Below are positions 9,919-19,727 of a stretch of 43,392 nt of DNA, piece by piece. Positions within the stretch are counted from its first letter, which is position 1. Every line of letters starts with the position of its first letter. Origin of the DNA: a virus; IMG/VR virus record IMGVR_UViG_3300046559_000385, positions 1-43,392 of that record. One strand, given 5' to 3'. The notes beneath the pieces were generated by a model that ran no database searches, was not told the DNA's origin, and worked only from the letters and a program-made list of their open reading frames with translations. The position numbers and the translations under genes were made by a program.

Positions 9919-11363
9919 CATCGTCGCACCTCGATCTGCCAGAGAAGCTTACTGTCACTGAGGCTGCGGCAGAGCTAGCGCGTGTTGAAACTGCGCTCGC
10001 TCGCCTTTCACTCCTCGATTTCACGACATACACGAAGCGCGACTACGAGATCAACTGGCATCACGTCATCGTCGCCGAGGCGCTCGACCGCGTCCTAGCT
10101 GGCCGATGCCGCCGTCTGATGATCTTTGAGCCGCCGCAGAATGGCAAGAGCGAGCAGGTCTCGCGACGCTTTCCGGCTTACGCCTTTGGCAGGCGGCCGA
10201 ACCTGCGTATCATCGCGTGCTCCTATTCAGATACCTTGGCGCAGGATATGAGTCGAGACGTACAGAAGGTGATGGACACGCCGGAGTATCGCGTCCTATT
10301 TCCTCACTCTCGCCTGGCAGAATCGCGCGATGCCGAGAAGAGGACGCAGGGGCAGTTCGACGTCGTCGGTGGCGTCGGCTATTACATTGCGTCAGGTATC
10401 ATGGGGTCGATCACCGGTCGTACGGCGGACATCGGAATCATCGACGATCCTGTCAAGAACCGCGAGGAAGCTGAGTCGGAAGTCTATCGCGACCGTGTCT
10501 TCGAACAGTACAAGTCAGCGTTTGCTACGAGGCAGTTTGGTAGTGACGGAGCGATCATCCTGTGCATGACGCGGTGGAACGAGGATGATCTTGCCGGTCG
10601 CCTGCTGCGGATCGCGGCCGAACATCCAGAAGCCGATCAGTGGGAGGTTGTCAGTCTGCCTGCGATCGCCGAGGAGGTAGACGCGCACCGTCAGGTCGGC
10701 GAGCCGCTGTGGCCCGCCAAGTATCCGCTTGAGGAGCTTGCTCGCAGGCGAGCAGGACTCGGCGCGTATGACTGGGCCGCGCTCTACCAGCAGCGACCGG
10801 CGCCGTCAGGCGGAGGACTGTTTCAAGAATCGTGGTTCGCCAATAGCTTCGTTGACGCCGCGCCTGTCAACGCCCGCCGTGCGCGTGGTTGGGACACGGC
10901 CGGTACCGAGAATGATGGCGACTGGACGTGCGGCGTGAAGATTGCTGAGGCGAACGGCATCTTCTACGTTGAAGACGTGCGCCGGCAGCAGGTCGGGCCG
11001 TCGAAGGTCGATGCACTCATCCGCGTGACGACCGAGGCGGACGGCGTTGCGTGCGCGGTGCGTGAGGAGAAGGAAGGTGGCTCGGCGGGCGTCGCGGTCG
11101 TCGCCGCGAGGGCGAAGACGCTGGCCGGGTTCAACTACGCCGGCGTGCAGATTAGCGGTAGCAAGGTGACTCGGTGCAAGCCGTTCCGCGCGCAGTGCGA
11201 GGCGGGCAACGTGCGCATCGTGCGCGGGCCGTGGAACGCGGCTTACGTCCAGGAGCTGTGCGGGTTTCCGACAGCGAAGCATGACGATCAGGTTGACGCG
11301 TCGTCGTGTGCGTTCAACGCCGTGCTGCTCGAGCCGGTCATCGACGACTGGTTGGTCGTATGA
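9915..11363 (+). CDS. terL: Terminase large subunit (482 aa)
   Basis: TTG start in a TTGA overlap. The ATPase part has a Walker-A-like PPQNGKSE (73-80), Walker B IGIIDDPV (173-180) and the coupling region ILCMTRWNEDDL (215-226). The nuclease part has GWDTAG (325-330), YVEDVRR (351-357) and HDDQVDAS (456-463), giving the RNase-H-like acidic residues. It cuts concatemeric DNA and pumps it into the prohead through the portal. Length and motif order are standard. Confidence 0.93.
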   Translation: MTSSHLDLPEKLTVTEAAAELARVETALARLSLLDFTTYTKRDYEINWHHVIVAEALDRVLAGRCRRLMIFEPPQNGKSEQVSRRFPAYAFGRRPNLRIIACSYSDTLAQDMSRDVQKVMDTPEYRVLFPHSRLAESRDAEKRTQGQFDVVGGVGYYIASGIMGSITGRTADIGIIDDPVKNREEAESEVYRDRVFEQYKSAFATRQFGSDGAIILCMTRWNEDDLAGRLLRIAAEHPEADQWEVVSLPAIAEEVDAHRQVGEPLWPAKYPLEELARRRAGLGAYDWAALYQQRPAPSGGGLFQESWFANSFVDAAPVNARRARGWDTAGTENDGDWTCGVKIAEANGIFYVEDVRRQQVGPSKVDALIRVTTEADGVACAVREEKEGGSAGVAVVAARAKTLAGFNYAGVQISGSKVTRCKPFRAQCEAGNVRIVRGPWNAAYVQELCGFPTAKHDDQVDASSCAFNAVLLEPVIDDWLVV

Positions 11364-13381
11364 GCGCCAAACCCGAAGGCGTCCTCAAGTCCCTCACCTC
11401 GGTCCTCCTCGAGCGCTATCGCTTCTTCCGGCAGGCGGGTGTCAGCTTTGGCGGCGCACGCGACCTCTACGCGGTGCTCGGCTACCAGCGCATCCTGCAG
11501 TACCTCGACTATCGCCTGCGGTACCAGCGCGGCGGCATCGCGAAGCGCATCGTCGAGGCGTATCCGAAGGCGACGTGGCGCGGCGGCGTGGAGCTGTATG
11601 AGGACGAGGATGCCGCGAAGGACACCGCGTTCGAAGAGGCGTGGAAGTCGATTCAAGATCGCCTGAACGTCTGGTCACGCCTGCAGGCCGCCGACATCCT
11701 GGCCGGCCTGAGCACGTTCTCCGTCCTCCTCATCGGCGCGCCTGGCGAGCTTGAGACCGAGCTGCCGCGCGGCACGTCGCCGGACAGGCTGCTCTACCTC
11801 CAGCCCTACTCAGGCGGCGGCGGTCCGCCCACGTCCAACACGCTGCTCATGCAGAACCACACGCAGGGCCTGGACTCGGACTGCTCGATCAAGAACTTCG
11901 ACGTCGATCCCAAGAGCGTCCGCTTCGGTGAGCCGCTGACCTACCTGCTTCGCCGCACGGATATCAACCTACCGGGGCAGATGCGCGAGATCCATTGGTC
12001 GCGCGTCATCCACGTGGCCGAGGGCTGCCTCGACGACAACGTCTACGGCATGCCGACGCTGGAGAACGTGTGGAACCTGCTTGATGATCTGGACAAGGTC
12101 ACCGGCGGCGGCGCTGAGGCGTTCTGGCTGCGCGCGAATCAGGGCTTGCACCTGGACGTCGACAAGGATATGGGGCTGCCTGGTTCCACGAGCGCTGGGC
12201 TGAGCGCCGACGAGCGGAAGGTGCTGCACGAGAAGGCCGAGGAGATCCAGCACCAGCTGCAGCGCGTCCTGGTCACGCGCGGCGTGACCGCCACGCAGCT
12301 CGGCTCGGACGTTGCCAACCTCGGACCGAACGCTGACGCGATCCTGAAGCAGATCGGCGGCAGCAAGGGCATCCCGACACGCATCCTGACGGGTTCGGAG
12401 ATGGGGCAGCTGGCCAGCGGTCAGGACGCCGACAACTGGCGCACGCAGGTCCAGGACCGACGGACGAGCTATGCGGGGCCGATGATCGTGCGGCGGCTCG
12501 TCGACAGGCTCGTCGAGTACGGCTACCTGCCGAAGCCGAAGCAGTACGACATTGCGTGGCCTGTCGAAGAGGATATGTCGGAGCTGGACAAGGCGACGCT
12601 CGCGCTCACGCTGACGAACGTCAATAAGAACTACGGCAGCGACGTGTTCGACGCGGACTTCATCCGCGAGAAGGCGTACAAGCTCGAGCCGCTCGAGGAG
12701 CTGCCGCAGTGGGAGTTCATGTCGGAGCTGGACAAGGCGACGCTCGCCACGAAGCTGGCGATGGTCAACAAGGAGATGGGCATCACCGTCTACACGGACG
12801 ACGAGATCCGCGACATGTCGTTCGGCAAGGCGCCGCTCACAGACGCGGAGAAGGTGCCGATCGGGGCGCCCGAGCGCATCAGCGTGACGCAGCCGCCGGA
12901 GCTGGGGGCGGACGGACAGCCTATACCACAGCCCGCGCTGCCGAACACGCCGGAGATCAAGGCGGCGCTTAGGGCGCTGGAAGAGGCGATCGAGGCGGAC
13001 GATGCGGAAGCCATCCTGAAGATACTTGGTGACGTGCCCGGACATGAGTTCCACGGGAATCAGTGGACCGAAGGCGGCGCGACGGGCATGATCTTTAAGG
13101 AGTACGCTACGACAGGTTATGGACCTGGCGAGCGTGGGGCTGAGAAGGCTCGTGCCGCCGCGCAGGAAGCGCACAAGGCACTGACGAAGGCTGGCTTCGT
13201 GAAGGCGGCACCGACGGAGCATAAGCATATCGCCGGCGAGAAGATGGGCAGGTCGCAGGCGTATTATTCCAGCTCGAAGAAGTCGACGACCGAGTATGCG
13301 CATCCCGACGGGCGAAAGGCATCGTTGCAGGCCACGTACGAAAAGACTAGCAACAGCAGCGTTCGTGTGAAACATTCATGA
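11360..13381 (+). CDS. Portal protein, DUF1073-like, with C-terminal cargo-like extension (673 aa)
   Basis: The ATG at 11360 overlaps the TerL stop. Residues 20-400 match the DUF1073 type of portal (DLYAVLGYQRILQYLDYRLR, then GGIAKRIVEAYPKATWRG and TFSVLLIGAP). Residues 406-500 hold two related 48-residue units, each starting MSELDKATLA. After residue 540 the protein departs from a portal. GDVPGHEFHGNQWT (557-570) introduces a roughly 100-residue basic module ending HPDGRKASL...VRVKHS, whose function I do not recognise. Portals of this family normally end earlier, so this looks like an added domain. It shares its motif with the MuF and protease proteins. Confidence 0.85.
   Translation: MSAKPEGVLKSLTSVLLERYRFFRQAGVSFGGARDLYAVLGYQRILQYLDYRLRYQRGGIAKRIVEAYPKATWRGGVELYEDEDAAKDTAFEEAWKSIQDRLNVWSRLQAADILAGLSTFSVLLIGAPGELETELPRGTSPDRLLYLQPYSGGGGPPTSNTLLMQNHTQGLDSDCSIKNFDVDPKSVRFGEPLTYLLRRTDINLPGQMREIHWSRVIHVAEGCLDDNVYGMPTLENVWNLLDDLDKVTGGGAEAFWLRANQGLHLDVDKDMGLPGSTSAGLSADERKVLHEKAEEIQHQLQRVLVTRGVTATQLGSDVANLGPNADAILKQIGGSKGIPTRILTGSEMGQLASGQDADNWRTQVQDRRTSYAGPMIVRRLVDRLVEYGYLPKPKQYDIAWPVEEDMSELDKATLALTLTNVNKNYGSDVFDADFIREKAYKLEPLEELPQWEFMSELDKATLATKLAMVNKEMGITVYTDDEIRDMSFGKAPLTDAEKVPIGAPERISVTQPPELGADGQPIPQPALPNTPEIKAALRALEEAIEADDAEAILKILGDVPGHEFHGNQWTEGGATGMIFKEYATTGYGPGERGAEKARAAAQEAHKALTKAGFVKAAPTEHKHIAGEKMGRSQAYYSSSKKSTTEYAHPDGRKASLQATYEKTSNSSVRVKHS
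13028..13069 (+). repeat. Module-boundary motif copy 1 (portal)
   Basis: Encodes GDVPGHEFHGNQWT at residues 557-570. Asn uses AAT and the second Gly GGG, as in every other copy. Confidence 0.85.
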
Positions 13382-16002
13382 CCCCTCAACTCGCCGCCCA
13401 GCTGCTCCTCACCGCGCACCGCAACGTGCGGATGCGGCAGCTCGGCGATCTGCCAGGGCATGAGTTTCACGGGAATCAGTGGACGGCGAAGGTGGGTGAT
13501 CTGAATGATTTCCCGCATCTAGCTGCCTTGCGAAAAATTGCTAATGACCCCCGCATTGCGGAGATCGAGGGTGGTGGGTTAGATAGTGGAAGAGTATTCT
13601 TGCATGCTTCTTTAGGGTGGCTTTTCGGGGAGCAGCGTTCAAAGTCTGTCGGAAGCCGTGAAGAAATTAAACAGGCCATGAAGCTATTGCGTCATGAGGT
13701 GCCGAAGACGCTCGGAGATCTGCCCGGCCACGAGTTTCATGGGAATCAGTGGACAGCGTATCACGGAACGACAGCTGAGAACGCAGCGAAAATTTTGAAA
13801 GAAGGGCTCAAGCCAGACAAACAGGGGGACATCTGGACGACGACGGATCTAATTGAAGCGAGAACCTACGCGCGTGCCGCAGGTAATAATTCCGTGATCT
13901 TAAAGATCAATGTACCTGCGCATGATACGACGAAGTATGACGAACGTAAAGGTGGCAAAACGCTTCGCGTATATAAGGAACCACTCAAAGCTGAATACGT
14001 GTCGATGCATTCCGCGCATGTCAGCGGCGGGCCTTTTGGAGAATGGAAGACACTCTCCGCCATCCCCGTCTCCTCCCGCGACCTCACCCCGCTCCACAAG
14101 GCCGCCGACGCGCACTACGCGTCCATCATGCTCGCGGTGAGCGCGGCGTTCATGAGGGGGAAGAAGGCGCTGAGGGCGAGCTTGCGAGGAGCGGAGTTCA
14201 ATCCTGATGAACCGCGTGATGAGAAGGGGCAATGGACGAGCGGCGGCGTTCAACCAGAAGAAAAGGCGATCGCTGAGCGTCTTGGGCTGCCGACGACCTA
14301 TAGCGGTACGGACAGCATGACGTCTCTTAGCGGTCGTTTGAATCCGGAGTCAGCTCGTGCCTACTTTGCGGGTAAGGCAGTTGATAACCCGATTCCGAAG
14401 AACAAGACGCTGACGATGGAGCAAGCTCAGAGGTTGCCCATCATGATGAGCGGCGAGACGAAAGAGGTTAGTATCGCGCCACTCAGGTCAACGCAAGACT
14501 ACATCCAACCGAGTGCTGTTGAAAAGTATAAGAACGGCGAAGGGATGACCTCGCGTCCTGTCGTCGCCACGATCCACGGCGAAGAAGTGCTGTTGAACGG
14601 CAATCATAACGTGTTGGCGGCGCAACTACGAGGCCAGGACACGATCAAAGTTCAGCACCTTGGCGACTTCTCCAAGCATGCCGACTATATCAAGAAGGTC
14701 GACGCGCAAGGCGGCGGATTTACGTCGTTATCTGCTTCTCCGAACATCTCCGCAGCGGTCTCCGCCATCCGCGCCTCGCTCGTCCACGACCTGCCGCCGG
14801 CGCTGGAGAAGGCGTATGTGGCGGGTGGGGGAACGGTTGGCGGGTTGAAGGCTGCCGGCGACGTCGAAGGGCATCCGTTTCATGGGAATCAGTGGACGGA
14901 AGGCGGCGGTACGACGCGCGAAGAGAAGATCGCTCGCATCAAGGAGATCAACACGCAGCTGAAGCCCATCCTCTCTTCAACTGGCGGCAACCTGACGGCA
15001 AAGCAGGCGCTGCAAGTAGAGAAGATGACTGGCGAGATTCAAGGGCACTCGTTTGACATTGCGAAGCCTATCACGCCTGAGAAGGTTGCCGAGAACATCG
15101 CAAAAGCTGGCGGCACAGCAGCGCAGAATACGATGAAGCCGGAGACGATCGCGGTGGCGCAGCACGACCTCCTGCAGAACAAGGACGTCTACTCGGCTAT
15201 CACGAAGTCTGCGACGGGTTCTTGGTTCAATCGCGATACACCCATCGACGACATCATGAACGGCAAGAACCCGAAGGTGAGCGCAGACCAGTTCCGTGCG
15301 ACGTTCGAGAAGACGCGCGAGACGCTGCGAGCACAGTATGGCGACAAGGTGCCAGCATATCGGGCCACAACCAATCAGAGGTCCAAGGCGACGCAGAACT
15401 GGGCGACGACTCGAGAGTTTGCTGCCAACTTCGGCAAGAATATCGTGGAGCGTAGCATTCCGATCAGTTCTATCATCGGAGCGAACGTTGGCTTGCGTGG
15501 CACATATCACGAGTTGATCGTTGATGCGCGAGAGATTAGGGGCGCTGCTACTAAATTCAAGATGCAGTTCGACGCCAAGAACTCTAACGCCGCCACCTGG
15601 GCCCTGACGCACGCCACGCAGATCGCCGACGACATCAGCCAGACCTCGAAGGACAACATCGCGCTGGCCGTCGCGCGGGCGCAGGAAGAGGGCGACCTCG
15701 GCGAGCAGTACGACGAGATCCTGGACGCCGTGGGCGACGAGGCGCGGGCCTCCCTGATCGCGCGCACCGAGTCCATGACCGCCGTCAACGAGGGGCAGCG
15801 CGATGCCTGGGACCAGGCGCTCGAGAAGGGCTTGCTGACGGAAGACAACCGCGTCGTCTGGATCGCCACGTCGGATGCCTGCCCGGAGTGCGAGGAGCTG
15901 GACGGCGAGGAGCGGACGCTGGACGGCGAGTATCCTGGGGACGGTGGAGACGGTCCTCCTCTCCACCCAAATTGCAGGTGCACGGAAGGGATCATAGGAT
16001 GA
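13378..16002 (+). CDS. MuF-type minor head protein with inserted effector-like modules (874 aa)
   Basis: ATG in an ATGA overlap. The MuF scaffold survives in pieces: helices at 235-270 (LTPLHKAADAHYASIMLAVS), 456-493 (AVSAIRASLVHDLPPALEKA) and 731-874, ending in the diagnostic Cys/His tail (DACPECEELDGEERTLDGEY, then HPNCRCTEG). Between these lie extra modules. Motif copies at 23-36 and 113-126 precede a small unknown domain and a domain starting AYHGTTAENAAKILKEGLKP (127-146), which reads as an ADP-ribosyltransferase or Tpt1-like fold. FNPDEPRDEKGQWTSGG (274-290) precedes a ParB/sulfiredoxin-like domain (VEKYKNGEG, VLLNGNHNVLAAQLRG). A motif copy at 494-507 precedes a second ART-like domain (VPAYRATT, NWATTREFAANFG, YHELIVDAREI: R, T/S and E positions). 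MuF proteins are usually 250-400 residues. MuF fusions to toxins are known, but three or more modules in one protein is unusual. Confidence 0.85.
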   Translation: MTPQLAAQLLLTAHRNVRMRQLGDLPGHEFHGNQWTAKVGDLNDFPHLAALRKIANDPRIAEIEGGGLDSGRVFLHASLGWLFGEQRSKSVGSREEIKQAMKLLRHEVPKTLGDLPGHEFHGNQWTAYHGTTAENAAKILKEGLKPDKQGDIWTTTDLIEARTYARAAGNNSVILKINVPAHDTTKYDERKGGKTLRVYKEPLKAEYVSMHSAHVSGGPFGEWKTLSAIPVSSRDLTPLHKAADAHYASIMLAVSAAFMRGKKALRASLRGAEFNPDEPRDEKGQWTSGGVQPEEKAIAERLGLPTTYSGTDSMTSLSGRLNPESARAYFAGKAVDNPIPKNKTLTMEQAQRLPIMMSGETKEVSIAPLRSTQDYIQPSAVEKYKNGEGMTSRPVVATIHGEEVLLNGNHNVLAAQLRGQDTIKVQHLGDFSKHADYIKKVDAQGGGFTSLSASPNISAAVSAIRASLVHDLPPALEKAYVAGGGTVGGLKAAGDVEGHPFHGNQWTEGGGTTREEKIARIKEINTQLKPILSSTGGNLTAKQALQVEKMTGEIQGHSFDIAKPITPEKVAENIAKAGGTAAQNTMKPETIAVAQHDLLQNKDVYSAITKSATGSWFNRDTPIDDIMNGKNPKVSADQFRATFEKTRETLRAQYGDKVPAYRATTNQRSKATQNWATTREFAANFGKNIVERSIPISSIIGANVGLRGTYHELIVDAREIRGAATKFKMQFDAKNSNAATWALTHATQIADDISQTSKDNIALAVARAQEEGDLGEQYDEILDAVGDEARASLIARTESMTAVNEGQRDAWDQALEKGLLTEDNRVVWIATSDACPECEELDGEERTLDGEYPGDGGDGPPLHPNCRCTEGIIG
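13444..13485 (+). repeat. Module-boundary motif copy 2 (MuF)
   Basis: Encodes GDLPGHEFHGNQWT. It is followed by a 76-residue module containing DPRIAEIEGGGLDSGRVFLH, which I recall as a recurring small phage domain of unknown function. Confidence 0.85.
13714..13755 (+). repeat. Module-boundary motif copy 3 (MuF)
   Basis: Encodes GDLPGHEFHGNQWT directly before the first ADP-ribosyltransferase-like module, whose YHGT motif starts two residues later. Confidence 0.85.
14197..14247 (+). repeat. Second linker motif type (MuF)
   Basis: Encodes FNPDEPRDEKGQWTSGG, a linker I recognise as recurrent in phage portal and MuF proteins ('FxPxEPRDExGRWTSGG'). Here it introduces the ParB-like module. Confidence 0.75.
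14857..14898 (+). repeat. Module-boundary motif copy 4 (MuF)
   Basis: Encodes GDVEGHPFHGNQWT, just before the second ART-like module. Two substitutions (PG to EG, E to P) against the other copies; the HGNQWT half is unchanged. Confidence 0.85.
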
Positions 16003-16032
16003 TAATGACCTTCACGAGCGGGGTGCTCAACG

Positions 16033-16383
16033 GTGCCACGGCCTCATGAACCTCACGAGTCGGACTACGTCGTACGGTACAGCGGTCCTGAACGTCGGAA
16101 CGGCATTGGCAATGGCGACTGGACGTCGCTCAAGGCGTGGGCGAACGCGATCGGGATCATCGGCATCCCAGGCGCCATCGCTATCTATCTCGTCTACATC
16201 GGCGCGACGGAGATGCCAAAGTTGGTAGTCAACAGTTCACAGGCGATCGTCGAGATTCAGAAGACGCGCGACACGCTCCGTGACCATATCGTGCAGACGG
16301 ATATCCTCATTCGTGCCATCGAGCGGACGTGCGTTGGCGTCGCGAAGGACTCCGATGCTAGAGCGAGATGCCTTGATAAGTAG
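16033..16383 (+). CDS. Small membrane protein, holin-like by layout (116 aa)
   Basis: GTG start at 16033, after a short gap following the MuF gene. The N-terminus is polar (MPRPHEPHESDYVVRYSGPE). One hydrophobic segment (AIGIIGIPGAIAIYLVYIGA, about 38-57) is followed by a coiled-coil-like tail with two Cys. One membrane span plus a soluble helix is compatible with a holin-associated or virion membrane protein. No lysin neighbour supports a lysis role, so the function stays open. Confidence 0.6.
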   Translation: MPRPHEPHESDYVVRYSGPERRNGIGNGDWTSLKAWANAIGIIGIPGAIAIYLVYIGATEMPKLVVNSSQAIVEIQKTRDTLRDHIVQTDILIRAIERTCVGVAKDSDARARCLDK

Positions 16384-16729
16384 TACCTGGAAGGGGTGGA
16401 TCTGGCGCGTCGGGGTGGCGCTGGTCCTGTGCTTGTGGGCCATCGTCGGGCTGGAGGCCGCGTTCAGCATCCGCGTCATCTACACGAACGCCGCGCAGAT
16501 CGCGGAGGTCAACAGCGAGATCGTCGAGATGCAGAAGATTCATTCGTCAAAGATGACGGAGATGTCCTTGCGTCTCGACATGCTCGAGAAGGTCCTGTTC
16601 GGCGACGTGCTGGCGAAGATCGCCGCGCAGCCGAAGGGCATCGAGACGTGGCAGCAGAATCGTGACAAGGAGATGCGCGAGCGGATCAGCAAGCTGGAAC
16701 TCTGGCGTCTGCATCAGGACGCGCGATGA
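16355..16729 (+). CDS. Membrane-anchored coiled-coil protein (124 aa)
   Basis: The ATG at 16355 overlaps the previous gene by 29 bases. Residues 12-40 hold one membrane span (VGVALVLCLWAIVGLEAAF). The rest is heptad-like (AAQIAEVNSEIVEMQKIHSS, then MSLRLDMLEKVLFGD), a probable coiled coil ending in a basic tail. It resembles the preceding protein in layout, so the two may be partners. Confidence 0.6.
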   Translation: MLERDALISSTWKGWIWRVGVALVLCLWAIVGLEAAFSIRVIYTNAAQIAEVNSEIVEMQKIHSSKMTEMSLRLDMLEKVLFGDVLAKIAAQPKGIETWQQNRDKEMRERISKLELWRLHQDAR

Positions 16730-16730
16730 C

Positions 16731-16916
16731 ATGTCTCTCGATCGCGGACAGGGCGACAAGAAAAAGTTTCCGGCCAAGGACCTTGAGCGGCTCTACAAGA
16801 AGGGTATCGAGCAGCAGAGGATTCGAGGCGATCAGTTGAACGCGATTATCGGCGGGAAGGTCTACGACCCGGACGCCTGGTACGACGTCACCGAGAAGGG
16901 TGTCGAGAAGTTGTGA
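16731..16916 (+). CDS. Small basic protein (61 aa)
   Basis: The ATG at 16731 starts one base after the previous TGA. The sequence MSLDRGQGDKKKFPAKDLER leads into a helix (YKKGIEQQRIRGDQLNAIIG), and the end is VYDPDAWYDVTEKGVEKL. No family recognised. It is conserved-looking in composition and tightly packed with its neighbours. Confidence 0.6.
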   Translation: MSLDRGQGDKKKFPAKDLERLYKKGIEQQRIRGDQLNAIIGGKVYDPDAWYDVTEKGVEKL

Positions 16917-17065
16917 CATGGGCATACCTGGCCGTGGCGTTCGTGGCAGGATATTGTGCAGGGCTGAGCAGGGCACGGCGGCTCATTCGTCAGTTGACAG
17001 AAGACTTGAACCGTAGCGCAACGAACTTACAGGGCGCGGTTGACGCGCAGAAGGATACCAGATGA
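16913..17065 (+). CDS. 50-residue membrane peptide
   Basis: GTG start in a GTGA overlap; stop in an ATGA overlap with the next gene. A hydrophobic N-terminus (MTWAYLAVAFVAGYCAGLSR) is followed by a polar helix (RLIRQLTEDLNRS...). This is the third membrane-anchored mini-protein between the MuF and protease genes. Confidence 0.55.
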   Translation: MTWAYLAVAFVAGYCAGLSRARRLIRQLTEDLNRSATNLQGAVDAQKDTR

Positions 17066-17283
17066 TTCTCGATGATCTCAAGGTGCAGGTGACGGCGACG
17101 ACGGATGTGGAAGCCTCTGCCGTGGTGGCGCTCAACGGTGTAGCAGCTCGCATTCAAGCGGCCGTGGACGCGGCGATCGCGGGCGGCGCGACGGCGGAGC
17201 AACTGGCTCCGGTGCAGGCCGAGGTCGACGCACTGAAGGCATCGTCAGACGCGCTGGCGGCTGCGGTCGTGGCGAATACGTAG
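17062..17283 (+). CDS. Ala-rich helical phage protein (73 aa)
   Basis: ATG in an ATGA overlap. It begins MILDDLKVQVTATTDVEASA and continues with Ala-rich amphipathic helices (VAARIQAAVDAAIAGGATAE). This short 'ILDDLxAQVxATxxVExSAV' type is common in phages next to head genes; its role is not settled. Coiled-coil assembly is likely. Confidence 0.65.
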   Translation: MILDDLKVQVTATTDVEASAVVALNGVAARIQAAVDAAIAGGATAEQLAPVQAEVDALKASSDALAAAVVANT

Positions 17284-17290
17284 ATGAGTC

Positions 17291-17476
17291 ATGGGCCGGA
17301 GGCAGCGCTATTCGACTCCGGATCAGGATGCCTTCATCTATACGCTGCAGGTAGAACTGGTGGCGCTTGAAGACGCTCTTACCATATTGGAGCGCAGAAT
17401 CATGCTACTACGAGACCGAGTGCAAGAGGAACTGGCCAAGAGGTGGGGCAAGGAATGCCCCGTGAAGAAGGCTTGA
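17291..17476 (+). CDS. Small coiled-coil protein (61 aa)
   Basis: ATG at 17291. After MGRRQRYSTPDQDAFIYTL a long charged helix follows (VELVALEDALTILERRIMLL...), which fits a coiled coil. No family recognised. It ends one base before the protease gene, so the two are probably translated together. Confidence 0.6.
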   Translation: MGRRQRYSTPDQDAFIYTLQVELVALEDALTILERRIMLLRDRVQEELAKRWGKECPVKKA

Positions 17477-17477
17477 T

Positions 17478-19727
17478 ATGCCAAATCGTCCTGAGCATAC
17501 CGACAAGATGAAGGCCTGCGTGGCGAAGCTTCAGGACACGCATGATGATTCGTCTGCCTACGCCATCTGTACGGCGTCGTTGCAGAAGGCTGGCGAGCCG
17601 GTCTTCGTGGGGGCTACGGCCGGTGGTGCGGAGGAGATGAGGCTGCTGGGCGATGTTCCTGGACATGAGTTCCATGGGAATCAATACACTGGTGAAGGCG
17701 GGGCTGCAGCACGTCAAGAACGCATCAAAGAAATTGACAAGCAGATCACAAAGATAGCCGTGGGTCCCAATACGCCCCGCGCAATCAAAGAACGCATGCA
17801 GAAGATCGCCCCTTTGGTTCAAGAGCAAGAACTGCATAAAAATGTTCTTGACCCTACGCGGCCACAAGCCATCTTAGCTTCCTCAAAATTGACAAAGCGC
17901 TCGGATGGCGGATATGACGTACAGCATGAAGGCGCGAAGATTGGAGCGCTGGAGCCGGTAAGTTTCACTGGATTCAAGGCCGTTAACAGTGCGCAGCAGA
18001 TGACCAGCCGCGAGGGGTTCAAGGCGCTATACGGCGACAAGATCGTCAACTCGCAAGGTACTCGTAAGGAAGGGCACGAAGCGATCGCGAGAGCGCACTC
18101 AGACGTATTGAGAACCCGACTTACTGGCGCTGAAGGTTATGTATTTGACGACGTCGACATAACTTCTCTGCGTACGCTCCACCTCGTCGGCGCCACAGGC
18201 GTCGTGCGCACCGAGATGTTTGAAGGACGCGAGCACCTCGTCGTCCCGCTCGTCGCGCTGATGGAGGGCGTCATCCACGCCATGAACGCCGAGACGCCGG
18301 AGTTCGTGCCGCTGGCCACGCTGCAGAAGGCGGCGGCAACGTGGAACGGCCGTCCTGTCACCATCGGCCACCCGTCGCGTGGCGGGGTTCAGTGCTCGGC
18401 CAACGACCCCGGCATCCGTGAGTCGCATGGCATCGGCACGATCTTCAACTCGCGCGTCGTGGGCACGAAGCTGCTACAAGAGGCGTGGATCGACAAGGCG
18501 AAGGCGAAGAGGCTTGACCCGGCGATGCTCGCGCGCCTCGTGACAGGCGAACGCGAGGAGGTCAGCGTCGGGGCGTTCGTCATCACGGACGGCACGACGG
18601 GCAGCTACAGGGGCAAGCCGTATCGCGCGCAGTGGCTGGAGACGATCGGCGATCACCTCGCGTTCCTCCCCGGAGGGCGCGGCGCCTGCTCCGTGGAGAT
18701 GGGATGCGGGACGCACCGGGCCGCGATGCGGATGTTAGGAGGATCGATGGAACTGCTGGGATCGATGCCGGACAAGGCGCAGGTCGAGATCAACAAGCCT
18801 GGTCATCCTGCGCACGGCAAGAAGGGCAAGATCACGTCGTCGAAGGGCGACATGCATACTGTCGGCGATTATGGCACGTTCAAGCAGTCGGAGTTGAAGG
18901 CTGCAGCGGATGGCGAGGAGGCCGCCGAGCTTGTCGGCTACAACCTGCTGCGCACGCACCTCGACACGATGGGCAAGGCGTGGGACGAAGCCTCCGGCAT
19001 CGTGAACGAGCTGATCGCCGACGAGACCGAGAACCCAACCGAGACGGCTGCGGAGGAAGATGCCGAAGAGGAGGTCGAGTCGGTACGGCTTGACTCTGTC
19101 ATGTCTCTGATGTCTGTCATCATGGCGATCGCGTCGCAGGCCATGTCGTGCTGTGCGGTCATGAATGCGCCGGAGGCGACAGACGTCATGCCGCGCTACG
19201 GGGCGATGCCGATGATGCCCTGCCCGACATGCGACGGCACTGGTCAGGTGAAAGATGGCAAGCAGTCGGACTGCCCAACGTGCGACGGCACGGGCGAGGT
19301 CGCCAAGTTCAAGGCGGCAGCTGGTTCACGTCACAACAAGAACGACCAGCAGATGGTTCAGGCAATTCACGATCAAGCTCAGGCGCTGGGTGCGCAGTGC
19401 GACCGGGCGAACTACAAGATGCTCCGCGACATCTCGCAGAAACAACGCGAAAGACTTCCGGATGCAGATTTCGCTGGCAAGGGCACGTCCTTTCCCATCA
19501 AGAAGCCGGAGGACGTGTCGGCGGCAGCGAGTTCAATCGGTCGGGCGGGCGCGGGCAACTATTCGACGGACGAGTTGAAGGCGAACATCATCAGGATTGC
19601 CTACCGGAAGGGTGCATCGTTCGTCGCGCAGCTCCCGGAGGCATGGAAGAAGAAAGCGGATCACAAAGCAGCAGCAAACGATCCAAACCGATTCTACATC
19701 GAGTCGGTTCTCAAGGGTGTACGATGA
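17478..19727 (+). CDS. DUF2213-like prohead protease / head maturation protein with extra domains (749 aa)
   Basis: The ATG at 17478 is followed by a short Cys domain (MKACVAKLQDTHDDSSAYAI). GDVPGHEFHGNQYT (58-71) opens an AT-richer module of about 145 residues with no recognised fold. Residues 219-415 are DUF2213-like (HLVVPLVALMEGVIHAMNAE, WNGRPVTIGHPSRGG, SHGIGTIFNSRVVG, GDHLAFLPGGRGACSVEMGC), placed where the head protease is expected. A low-complexity acidic region follows, then two DnaJ-type CxxCxGxG knuckles (CPTCDGTG twice, about 582-606). The C-terminus (RLPDADFAGKGTSFPI, IGRAGAGNYSTDELK, RIAYRKG) resembles the DUF6582 type found in phage head proteins. The family is usually 350-450 residues, so this is a strongly extended form. 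Confidence 0.8.
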   Translation: MPNRPEHTDKMKACVAKLQDTHDDSSAYAICTASLQKAGEPVFVGATAGGAEEMRLLGDVPGHEFHGNQYTGEGGAAARQERIKEIDKQITKIAVGPNTPRAIKERMQKIAPLVQEQELHKNVLDPTRPQAILASSKLTKRSDGGYDVQHEGAKIGALEPVSFTGFKAVNSAQQMTSREGFKALYGDKIVNSQGTRKEGHEAIARAHSDVLRTRLTGAEGYVFDDVDITSLRTLHLVGATGVVRTEMFEGREHLVVPLVALMEGVIHAMNAETPEFVPLATLQKAAATWNGRPVTIGHPSRGGVQCSANDPGIRESHGIGTIFNSRVVGTKLLQEAWIDKAKAKRLDPAMLARLVTGEREEVSVGAFVITDGTTGSYRGKPYRAQWLETIGDHLAFLPGGRGACSVEMGCGTHRAAMRMLGGSMELLGSMPDKAQVEINKPGHPAHGKKGKITSSKGDMHTVGDYGTFKQSELKAAADGEEAAELVGYNLLRTHLDTMGKAWDEASGIVNELIADETENPTETAAEEDAEEEVESVRLDSVMSLMSVIMAIASQAMSCCAVMNAPEATDVMPRYGAMPMMPCPTCDGTGQVKDGKQSDCPTCDGTGEVAKFKAAAGSRHNKNDQQMVQAIHDQAQALGAQCDRANYKMLRDISQKQRERLPDADFAGKGTSFPIKKPEDVSAAASSIGRAGAGNYSTDELKANIIRIAYRKGASFVAQLPEAWKKKADHKAAANDPNRFYIESVLKGVR
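17649..17690 (+). repeat. Module-boundary motif copy 5 (protease)
   Basis: Encodes GDVPGHEFHGNQYT; the only copy with Tyr in place of Trp. Confidence 0.85.

Follow-up and report, generated by a model that had tools for sequence, protein, structure and literature searches.

A peptide element of about 20 residues, Φ-x-[KL]GD[VL]xGHxF[HR]GNQ[YW]TxGxGG (hereafter the tag), lies on open reading frames (ORFs) of IMG/VR phages and, together with one domain, forms a mobile unit that is exchanged as a cassette. Judging from sequence, we lean towards the view that it is a portable cargo tag, acting as a signal for capsid loading and possibly for processing. The window analysed here is a 43,392-base virus contig (IMG/VR record IMGVR_UViG_3300046559_000385), in whose six-frame translation the motif GD[VL]xGHxFHGNQ[WY]T occurs as five in-frame copies on the coding strand: the portal ORF has one, the MuF ORF has three, and the ORF of a DUF2213, head maturation protease-like protein has one. 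An original prediction, made from the letters of this DNA, had named all five copies at these places, as well as a related linker, which is present between modules B and C of the MuF protein (Table 1). As a DNA pattern the motif gives five matches on the coding strand, none on the opposite strand and none for a reversed-pattern control, so that the five copies are not due to chance; the reversed pattern is also without matches in 29 of 29 further records.

The unit of exchange is defined by phages nearly identical to that of the window. The portals of L123, L250 and L252 match the window portal at 97–98% identity as far as residue 574 and end two residues later, at which place the window has a tag and 103 further residues instead. 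At the DNA level, identity of 94–97% with these three ends at 13002, 26 bases upstream of tag 1, resumes at 13402 and ends at 13484–13486 together with tag 2. The next homologous block begins at 14053 or 14067, a start that is not at a tag, and ends inside tag 4, at 14873 in L252 and at 14893 in L250 (where the last 74 bases are at 80% identity), while L123 leaves its contig; identity over MuF resumes from 15568 in L250 and from 15547 in L252. Phage L059, whose portal is 99.7% identical to that of the window, has 46 bp in place of the tag-plus-module block of the window protease and carries a different tag with about 83 residues at window position 19320–19329. The protease of L177 likewise lacks the window block (L250 and L177 share a contig, as do L252 and L175, and L059 and L174). 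The presence of these blocks in some and their absence from other near-identical phages shows that the exchanged unit is a tag plus a domain, and that such cassettes move independently in portal and protease. It also supports, for these two proteins, the earlier claim that the motif stands at junctions with segments foreign to the host protein.

More distant tagged portals (43–55% identity) have differing tails, with a 2H-like one common to L051 and L062 (the label is ours; PF13563 matched 2 of 150 modules). In L253 and L256 the tag precedes cargo resembling that of the window portal, the likeness to L256 being judged by eye. Three isolate portals terminate near the tag position, and portal relatives with other, untagged C-termini are found in L254, L255 and L261, as well as in L258 and L259, which are open at the 3′ end.

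A count of homology breakpoints across a wider set agrees with this picture. Among BLAST matches between 253 non-redundant tagged ORFs, scored at match ends that were internal and away from protein ends, the break fell on a tag in both proteins in 45 of 108 cases at ≥60% identity, against 3.7 at random places, and in 10 of 23 against 1.1 at ≥80% identity; these matches are not independent and involve 42 distinct tags. The count supports a place of the motif at junctions with foreign segments. Masked decoys gave 0/97, 2/94 and 1/92. We rely on the unmasked count, since the masked one (184 of 365 vs 7.9) takes each pair in either direction and masking raises it artificially.

The tag is widespread in IMG/VR. 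A degenerate-pattern scan found at least 119 stretches, and among the matches listed there were 232 motif instances in 171 stop-to-stop ORFs, 174 with distinct context. Over these 174 contexts information is limited to about −7 to +15 around GHxFHGNQ and columns beyond are near background, the invariance of the core being partly imposed by a search pattern that requires it. A profile search added variants in which the second His is replaced by R, N, E, Y or G; a role as metal site is disfavoured, as this residue is frequently Arg, Asn, Glu or Tyr. With a relaxed pattern and later loci the set reached at least 582 tagged ORFs, 253 of them non-redundant, and 393 tags. Two or more tags (maximum 8) are present in 73 of the 253, and a single record holds up to 21 exact copies (G001, among 29 records). 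Bacterial and archaeal genomes totalling 257 billion bases gave 22 pattern matches, which amounts to near absence, and only three of these (L126, L132 and L137, all on contigs of metagenome-assembled genomes) look tag-like by eye; a bacterial origin was therefore rejected. Four tag or linker peptides had no match in Pfam, nor had one such peptide in the PDB, and tag or linker strings such as FHGNQ or GNQWT were not found in literature text covering few subscription papers and no figures or supplements.

Among ORFs complete at the 5′ end, with the first ATG, GTG or TTG taken as start, 346 tags in 233 ORFs divide into 140 at most 60 amino acids (aa) from the start, 196 internal and 10 at most 40 aa from the end. 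A single tag near the N-terminus characterizes 108 of the 233 ORFs, 77 of which are ≤250 aa long, and these single-tag ORFs have recurring leaders, e.g. MSGFTTNELLYPLTKGD or MTNPFSTDALVPNWTxASEILKGD. Tagged ORFs also contain further linker classes, of the RDE (PRDExG[QR][WF]), KGGxGSGAxPGHxF[NE]GNQ and GGPGSGNFGHAGRPGEVGGS types (e.g. L182:2746-8274, L066:1802-2224 and L220:1435-8178). RDxxGx[WF] is matched 25 times in the 253 tagged ORFs against 0.75 in shuffled sequence, and GGxGSG 31 times against 0.3. Y-type C-terminal tags, with GHPFYGNQH close to the ORF end, occur at L031:6760-7257, L065:12262-12762 and L068:899-1525.

Cassettes sit at the portal C-terminus, within the protease and in strings that precede or surround the MuF domain; others form separate strings, as polyvalent-type proteins, or stand-alone ORFs, where a short leader precedes the tag. 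A Pfam scan of 150 of the 166 downstream modules and of all 51 upstream segments, which unfamiliar head families would escape, left the majority of downstream segments without a match. Those matched were PI3_PI4_kinase (8), Phage_Mu_F (4), pentapeptide, ADPrib_exo_Tox and GNAT (3 each), Acb1, 2_5_RNA_ligase2, HipA_2 and DRAT (2 each), with single matches to zeta toxin, topoisomerase IB, NUDIX and others. Cargo with a family match consists largely of effector-type or counter-defence-type enzymes, as can be said for a minority of modules. Upstream segments matched portals (6+3+2), DUF2213 (2), MuF (2) and a Mu-like protease (1), but also zeta toxin, NUDIX and GNAT. The recognised head-protein partners are portal, MuF and protease, and there were no tail or terminase families in the Pfam tallies of tagged segments.

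Recognised head proteins are the smaller part of the whole. At most 21 portal, MuF or protease family matches fall on 121 non-redundant tagged ORFs, so that the tag lies mostly outside recognised head proteins, and its restriction to such proteins, as literally claimed at first, is not upheld. What stands of the proposed plug-in system is the plugging in: gain and loss of tag plus domain, the breakpoints and the effector-type matches all speak for it, and the prediction is partly supported, in a form wider than first stated that points towards a more general cargo tag.

Alignments group modules into kinase-like, ParB-like, ADP-ribosyltransferase (ART), GNAT-like and HELGH metallopeptidase families, named from sequence pattern. 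Profile searches of the PDB gave weak matches to PI4K and actin-fragmin kinase for the kinase-like family, no credible match (mostly protein A constructs) for the ParB-like family, and no match at all for the ART and metallopeptidase families. The nearest structural neighbours of a model of the ART family are ADP-ribosyltransferases (best Foldseek E 0.0084; VIA Z ≤5.6, a value that can reflect merely a common arrangement). In this one usable model (six sequences), the tag ahead of the ART-like domain has a predicted local distance difference test (pLDDT) score of about 31–36. The same families recur in differing places, alone after an N-terminal tag and inside strings, and L078 unites GNAT-like, ART and metallopeptidase members in a single ORF.

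Some further tagged loci deserve mention. L188:1-7446 is a 2482-aa ORF with eight tags and a MuF-region match in its middle. In L158:14429-19183, a domain of ~100 aa immediately preceding a tag (residues 226–341) has matches in the N-terminal part of a capsid maturation protease in phage DSL-LC01 and in that of Roseobacter phage proteins whose annotation is major capsid protein. Residues 289–486 of L151:9697-15906 are related to a protein annotated as structural, gp205 of Rhodococcus phage E3; a tag-like string was not found at that locus. An untagged family of 144–152 aa lies among tagged genes (L151:1123-1578, L155:2602-3033, L158:9381-9836 and L162:8572-9015), and a search of eight phages for a common untagged protein makes it a candidate tag partner.

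It is the peptide, rather than its DNA, that is kept. Codons of invariant residues in copies from one phage vary about as codon usage predicts in six of seven phages, and the tag as a DNA recombination site was rejected as the main explanation, with G014 as the exception. The five copies of the window have a codon likeness of 0.600 vs 0.518 (not simulated). Phages tend towards one tag dialect, KGD or LGD. For GD-type tags in contigs with at least three tags, 16 of 21 contigs use one residue at position −5 and five are mixed, none of them combining K with L (examples are K in 22/22, 17/17 and 10/10 and L in 19/19 and 4/4; the window has L in four and A in one). Mutual information between this position and the contig has a z of 20.5 over 162 tags, reached in 0 of 500 shuffles. 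A lineage-specific recognition partner would yield such dialects; shared ancestry would as well.

Tagged genes also tend to lie near head genes. In G001 three tagged ORFs (2411, 1280 and 613 aa) come after the MuF gene (51215–52297); the tagged ORFs of G014 at 66332–79634 surround its MuF gene downstream of portal and protease; and G003 has two tagged clusters, one by portal and protease and the other by terminase. In a count over 12 contigs, a portal or MuF gene is at most 15 kb away from 50 of 75 copies, where rotation gives 31.2, a moderate effect (P 0.032 per copy; P 0.006 for the mean per contig) that ranges down to 2/8 in G003 and 0/1 in G025. These 12 are the records, out of 29, of at least 40 kb with a portal or MuF gene found, and 15 kb was our choice; the anchorless G002 (which appears to be the phage of G024), G010, G015 and G023 were omitted, and the weak MuF match of G019 (E 7.5e-4) did not serve as an anchor.

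We propose that the tag would be read during procapsid assembly by an inner-head component, most likely scaffold, portal or maturation protease, and that the attached domain would thereby be taken into the head. The tag may also be cut in the head, freeing domains fused to portal or protease for ejection, a step suggested because portal-fused cargo could presumably not be ejected otherwise. We advance only tentatively the more ambitious idea of a cargo-addressing code, in which tag dialects of ~20 residues and a dedicated inner-head receptor or protease would load a combinatorial arsenal of effectors and counter-defence proteins into the capsid; it would cover cargo fused to portal, MuF or protease, strung in polyvalent proteins, or made singly. 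Several observations weigh against a loading signal. Fusions to portal and protease retain their tags, although a signal for targeting alone would be superfluous there, and no major capsid protein or scaffold was matched by Pfam among tagged segments. Proximity to head genes is modest, with tags distant from the portal in G003, G012, G014 and G024. Codons in G014 are more alike than expected (0.573 vs 0.450, sd 0.034; 3.6 sd). The dialects may reflect plain shared ancestry: only 14 homologous module pairs go from K to L, seven of them from one L188 module and six from the MuF region, and other positions mix inside a phage (H or R at +4). Finally, tblastn searches of isolate phages with a 21-aa tag peptide and with the window MuF protein gave no match, and an isolate carrying the tag was not found; the 2411-aa tagged ORF of G001 matched three isolate records, each at <60% identity.

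The redundancy in portal and protease fusions would disappear if the tag were a processing site only, at which the maturation protease splits strings and frees portal and MuF cargo, uptake being left to fusion or neighbouring synthesis. This would also account for tags between domains, and agrees with the predicted disorder of the tag in the usable model, with genes adjoining tagged genes in G003 and G014 that match maturation-protease PHROGs (though not as best matches), and with the reported processing of inner-head proteins in T4 and SPN3US (PMC5694885). We nevertheless think it unlikely: the conserved stretch exceeds known prohead cleavage motifs in length and has no majority glutamate, and the putative major capsid ORF of the window, a usual protease substrate, is without a tag. 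Even less inviting is a passive flexible linker at domain borders, spreading because recombination is tolerated there. The Gly-rich tail of the tag, the other linker classes (RDE, GGxGSG) in the same ORFs and the breakpoints coinciding with the tag would fit it, but the G-H-x-F-x-G-N-Q core recurs with few variants (in part fixed by the search pattern), codons lack the conservation that a DNA homology arm would require, and the K/L dialect speaks against it as well. The 108 ORFs with a single tag near the N-terminus, with their recurring leaders, make a mere spacer a weak explanation and favour a loading signal. An action of the tag inside the infected host cell or at ejection, rather than in assembly, would suit its position ahead of each effector, but the portal and protease fusions argue for assembly and make this improbable.

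The features of the window are collected in Table 1. The portal ORF opens at a GTG at 11306 (11306–13381), with 11360 as the likely start, since the ORFs of L251, L250 and L123 begin at residue 19; an internal duplication at 12575–12772 (MSELDKATLA... repeated) is missing from the portals of L022, L051 and L062. The ATG of the MuF gene overlaps the portal stop codon, and in the MuF protein the tags separate an N-terminal string of modules, with the MuF domain last; its AlphaFold model has a pLDDT of 43.1. Both matches of module B are below Pfam cut-offs, and a profile comparison of module C with the ParB-like family is weak (probability 2.2, E 0.021), so that its likeness to ParB is not established. 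Tag 5 opens an insert in the protease, behind which the host protein picks up again.

Table 1. Portal, MuF and protease genes of the window with their tags and modules
Feature	Position	Strand	Basis or remark
Portal protein with C-terminal tag and cargo	11360..13381	+	PF06381 (Phage_portal_3) E 3e-19; phrog_146 E 1.3e-52
Tag 1	13028..13069	+	Six-frame motif match; at natural portal C-terminus
Portal-borne cargo domain, 103 aa	13070..13378	+	Comparison with other portals
MuF protein, string of tagged modules	13378..16002	+	PF04233 at residues 760-869 of 874
Tag 2 (MuF protein residues 23-36)	13444..13485	+	Six-frame motif match
Module A, without assigned family	13486..13713	+	Not conserved in L123, L250, L252
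Tag 3	13714..13755	+	Six-frame motif match
Module B, weak RNA 2′-phosphotransferase/PARP-like match	13756..14196	+	PF01885 E 0.001; PF00644 E 0.066
RDE-type linker FNPDEPRDEKGQWTSGG, related to tag	14197..14247	+	Six-frame translation
Module C	14248..14856	+	ParB-like by eye only
Tag 4	14857..14898	+	Six-frame motif match
Module D, putatively ART-like (by eye)	14899..15546	+	Sequence likeness; no DNA match in L250 or L252
MuF domain	15655..15984	+	PF04233 E 4.3e-12
DUF2213/head maturation protease-like protein	17478..19727	+	PF09979 E 2.5e-8; phrog_530, phrog_2229
Protease tag-plus-module block	17627..18176	+	Missing in near-identical phage L059
Tag 5	17649..17690	+	Six-frame motif match

Should the tag prove to be a loading signal, it would offer a sequence handle for listing, directly from metagenomes, the proteins that phages carry into their hosts, including many without an assigned family and some that match counter-defence families. 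It would also explain the interconversion of polyvalent proteins, MuF fusions and stand-alone effectors, and could serve as a portable tag for putting chosen proteins into phage heads.

Four known systems invite comparison; the accessible text describes no such tag for any of them (PMC5694885, PMC9024508, PMC5512222, PMC5576092). By analogy, the tag would work like the capsid-targeting sequence (CTS) of T4 or the leader of P1 DarB, with homology shown to neither. The CTS is a short N-terminal element on several prohead-bound proteins of one phage (PMC5694885), among them the ADP-ribosyltransferase Alt (PMC5694885, PMC5512222). Of 346 tags, 140 are also near an N-terminus, on proteins that may go into the head; the 196 internal and 10 C-terminal ones, and those on portal, MuF and protease fusions, set the tag apart; and unlike the xxE cleavage sites of T4, no position in the sequence of the tag has a majority of glutamate. 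In P1, the N-terminal 30 residues of DarB suffice to direct a reporter to the capsid, the Dar system being one of anti-restriction, and the accessible text describes no motif common to many proteins, in which the tag differs (PMC9024508).

Polyvalent proteins of phages combine several domains, of the ART, GNAT, kinase, ParB-like, peptidase and 2H types, and include fusions with MuF and portal; a shared tag or linker is not described in the accessible text (PMC5512222), unlike here. Part of our set has the same build, with at least two disparate domains per polypeptide (the 73 multi-tag ORFs of 253, and L078), and the same vicinity to virion genes (50 of 75 copies vs 31.2, and the arrays beside MuF in G001 and G014). 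Stand-alone tagged ORFs, in which similar units occur singly behind a tag, set it apart. In MuF polymorphic toxins, the MuF gene lies directly downstream of the portal and encodes toxin-type domains (PMC5576092). The window MuF gene (13378–16002) likewise comes right after the portal (11306–13381). MuF polymorphic toxins are built with the MuF domain at the N-terminus and the toxin at the C-terminus. The window departs from this order, its cargo preceding a MuF domain at residues 760–869 of 874, and departs from these toxins also in that portal and protease carry cargo as well.
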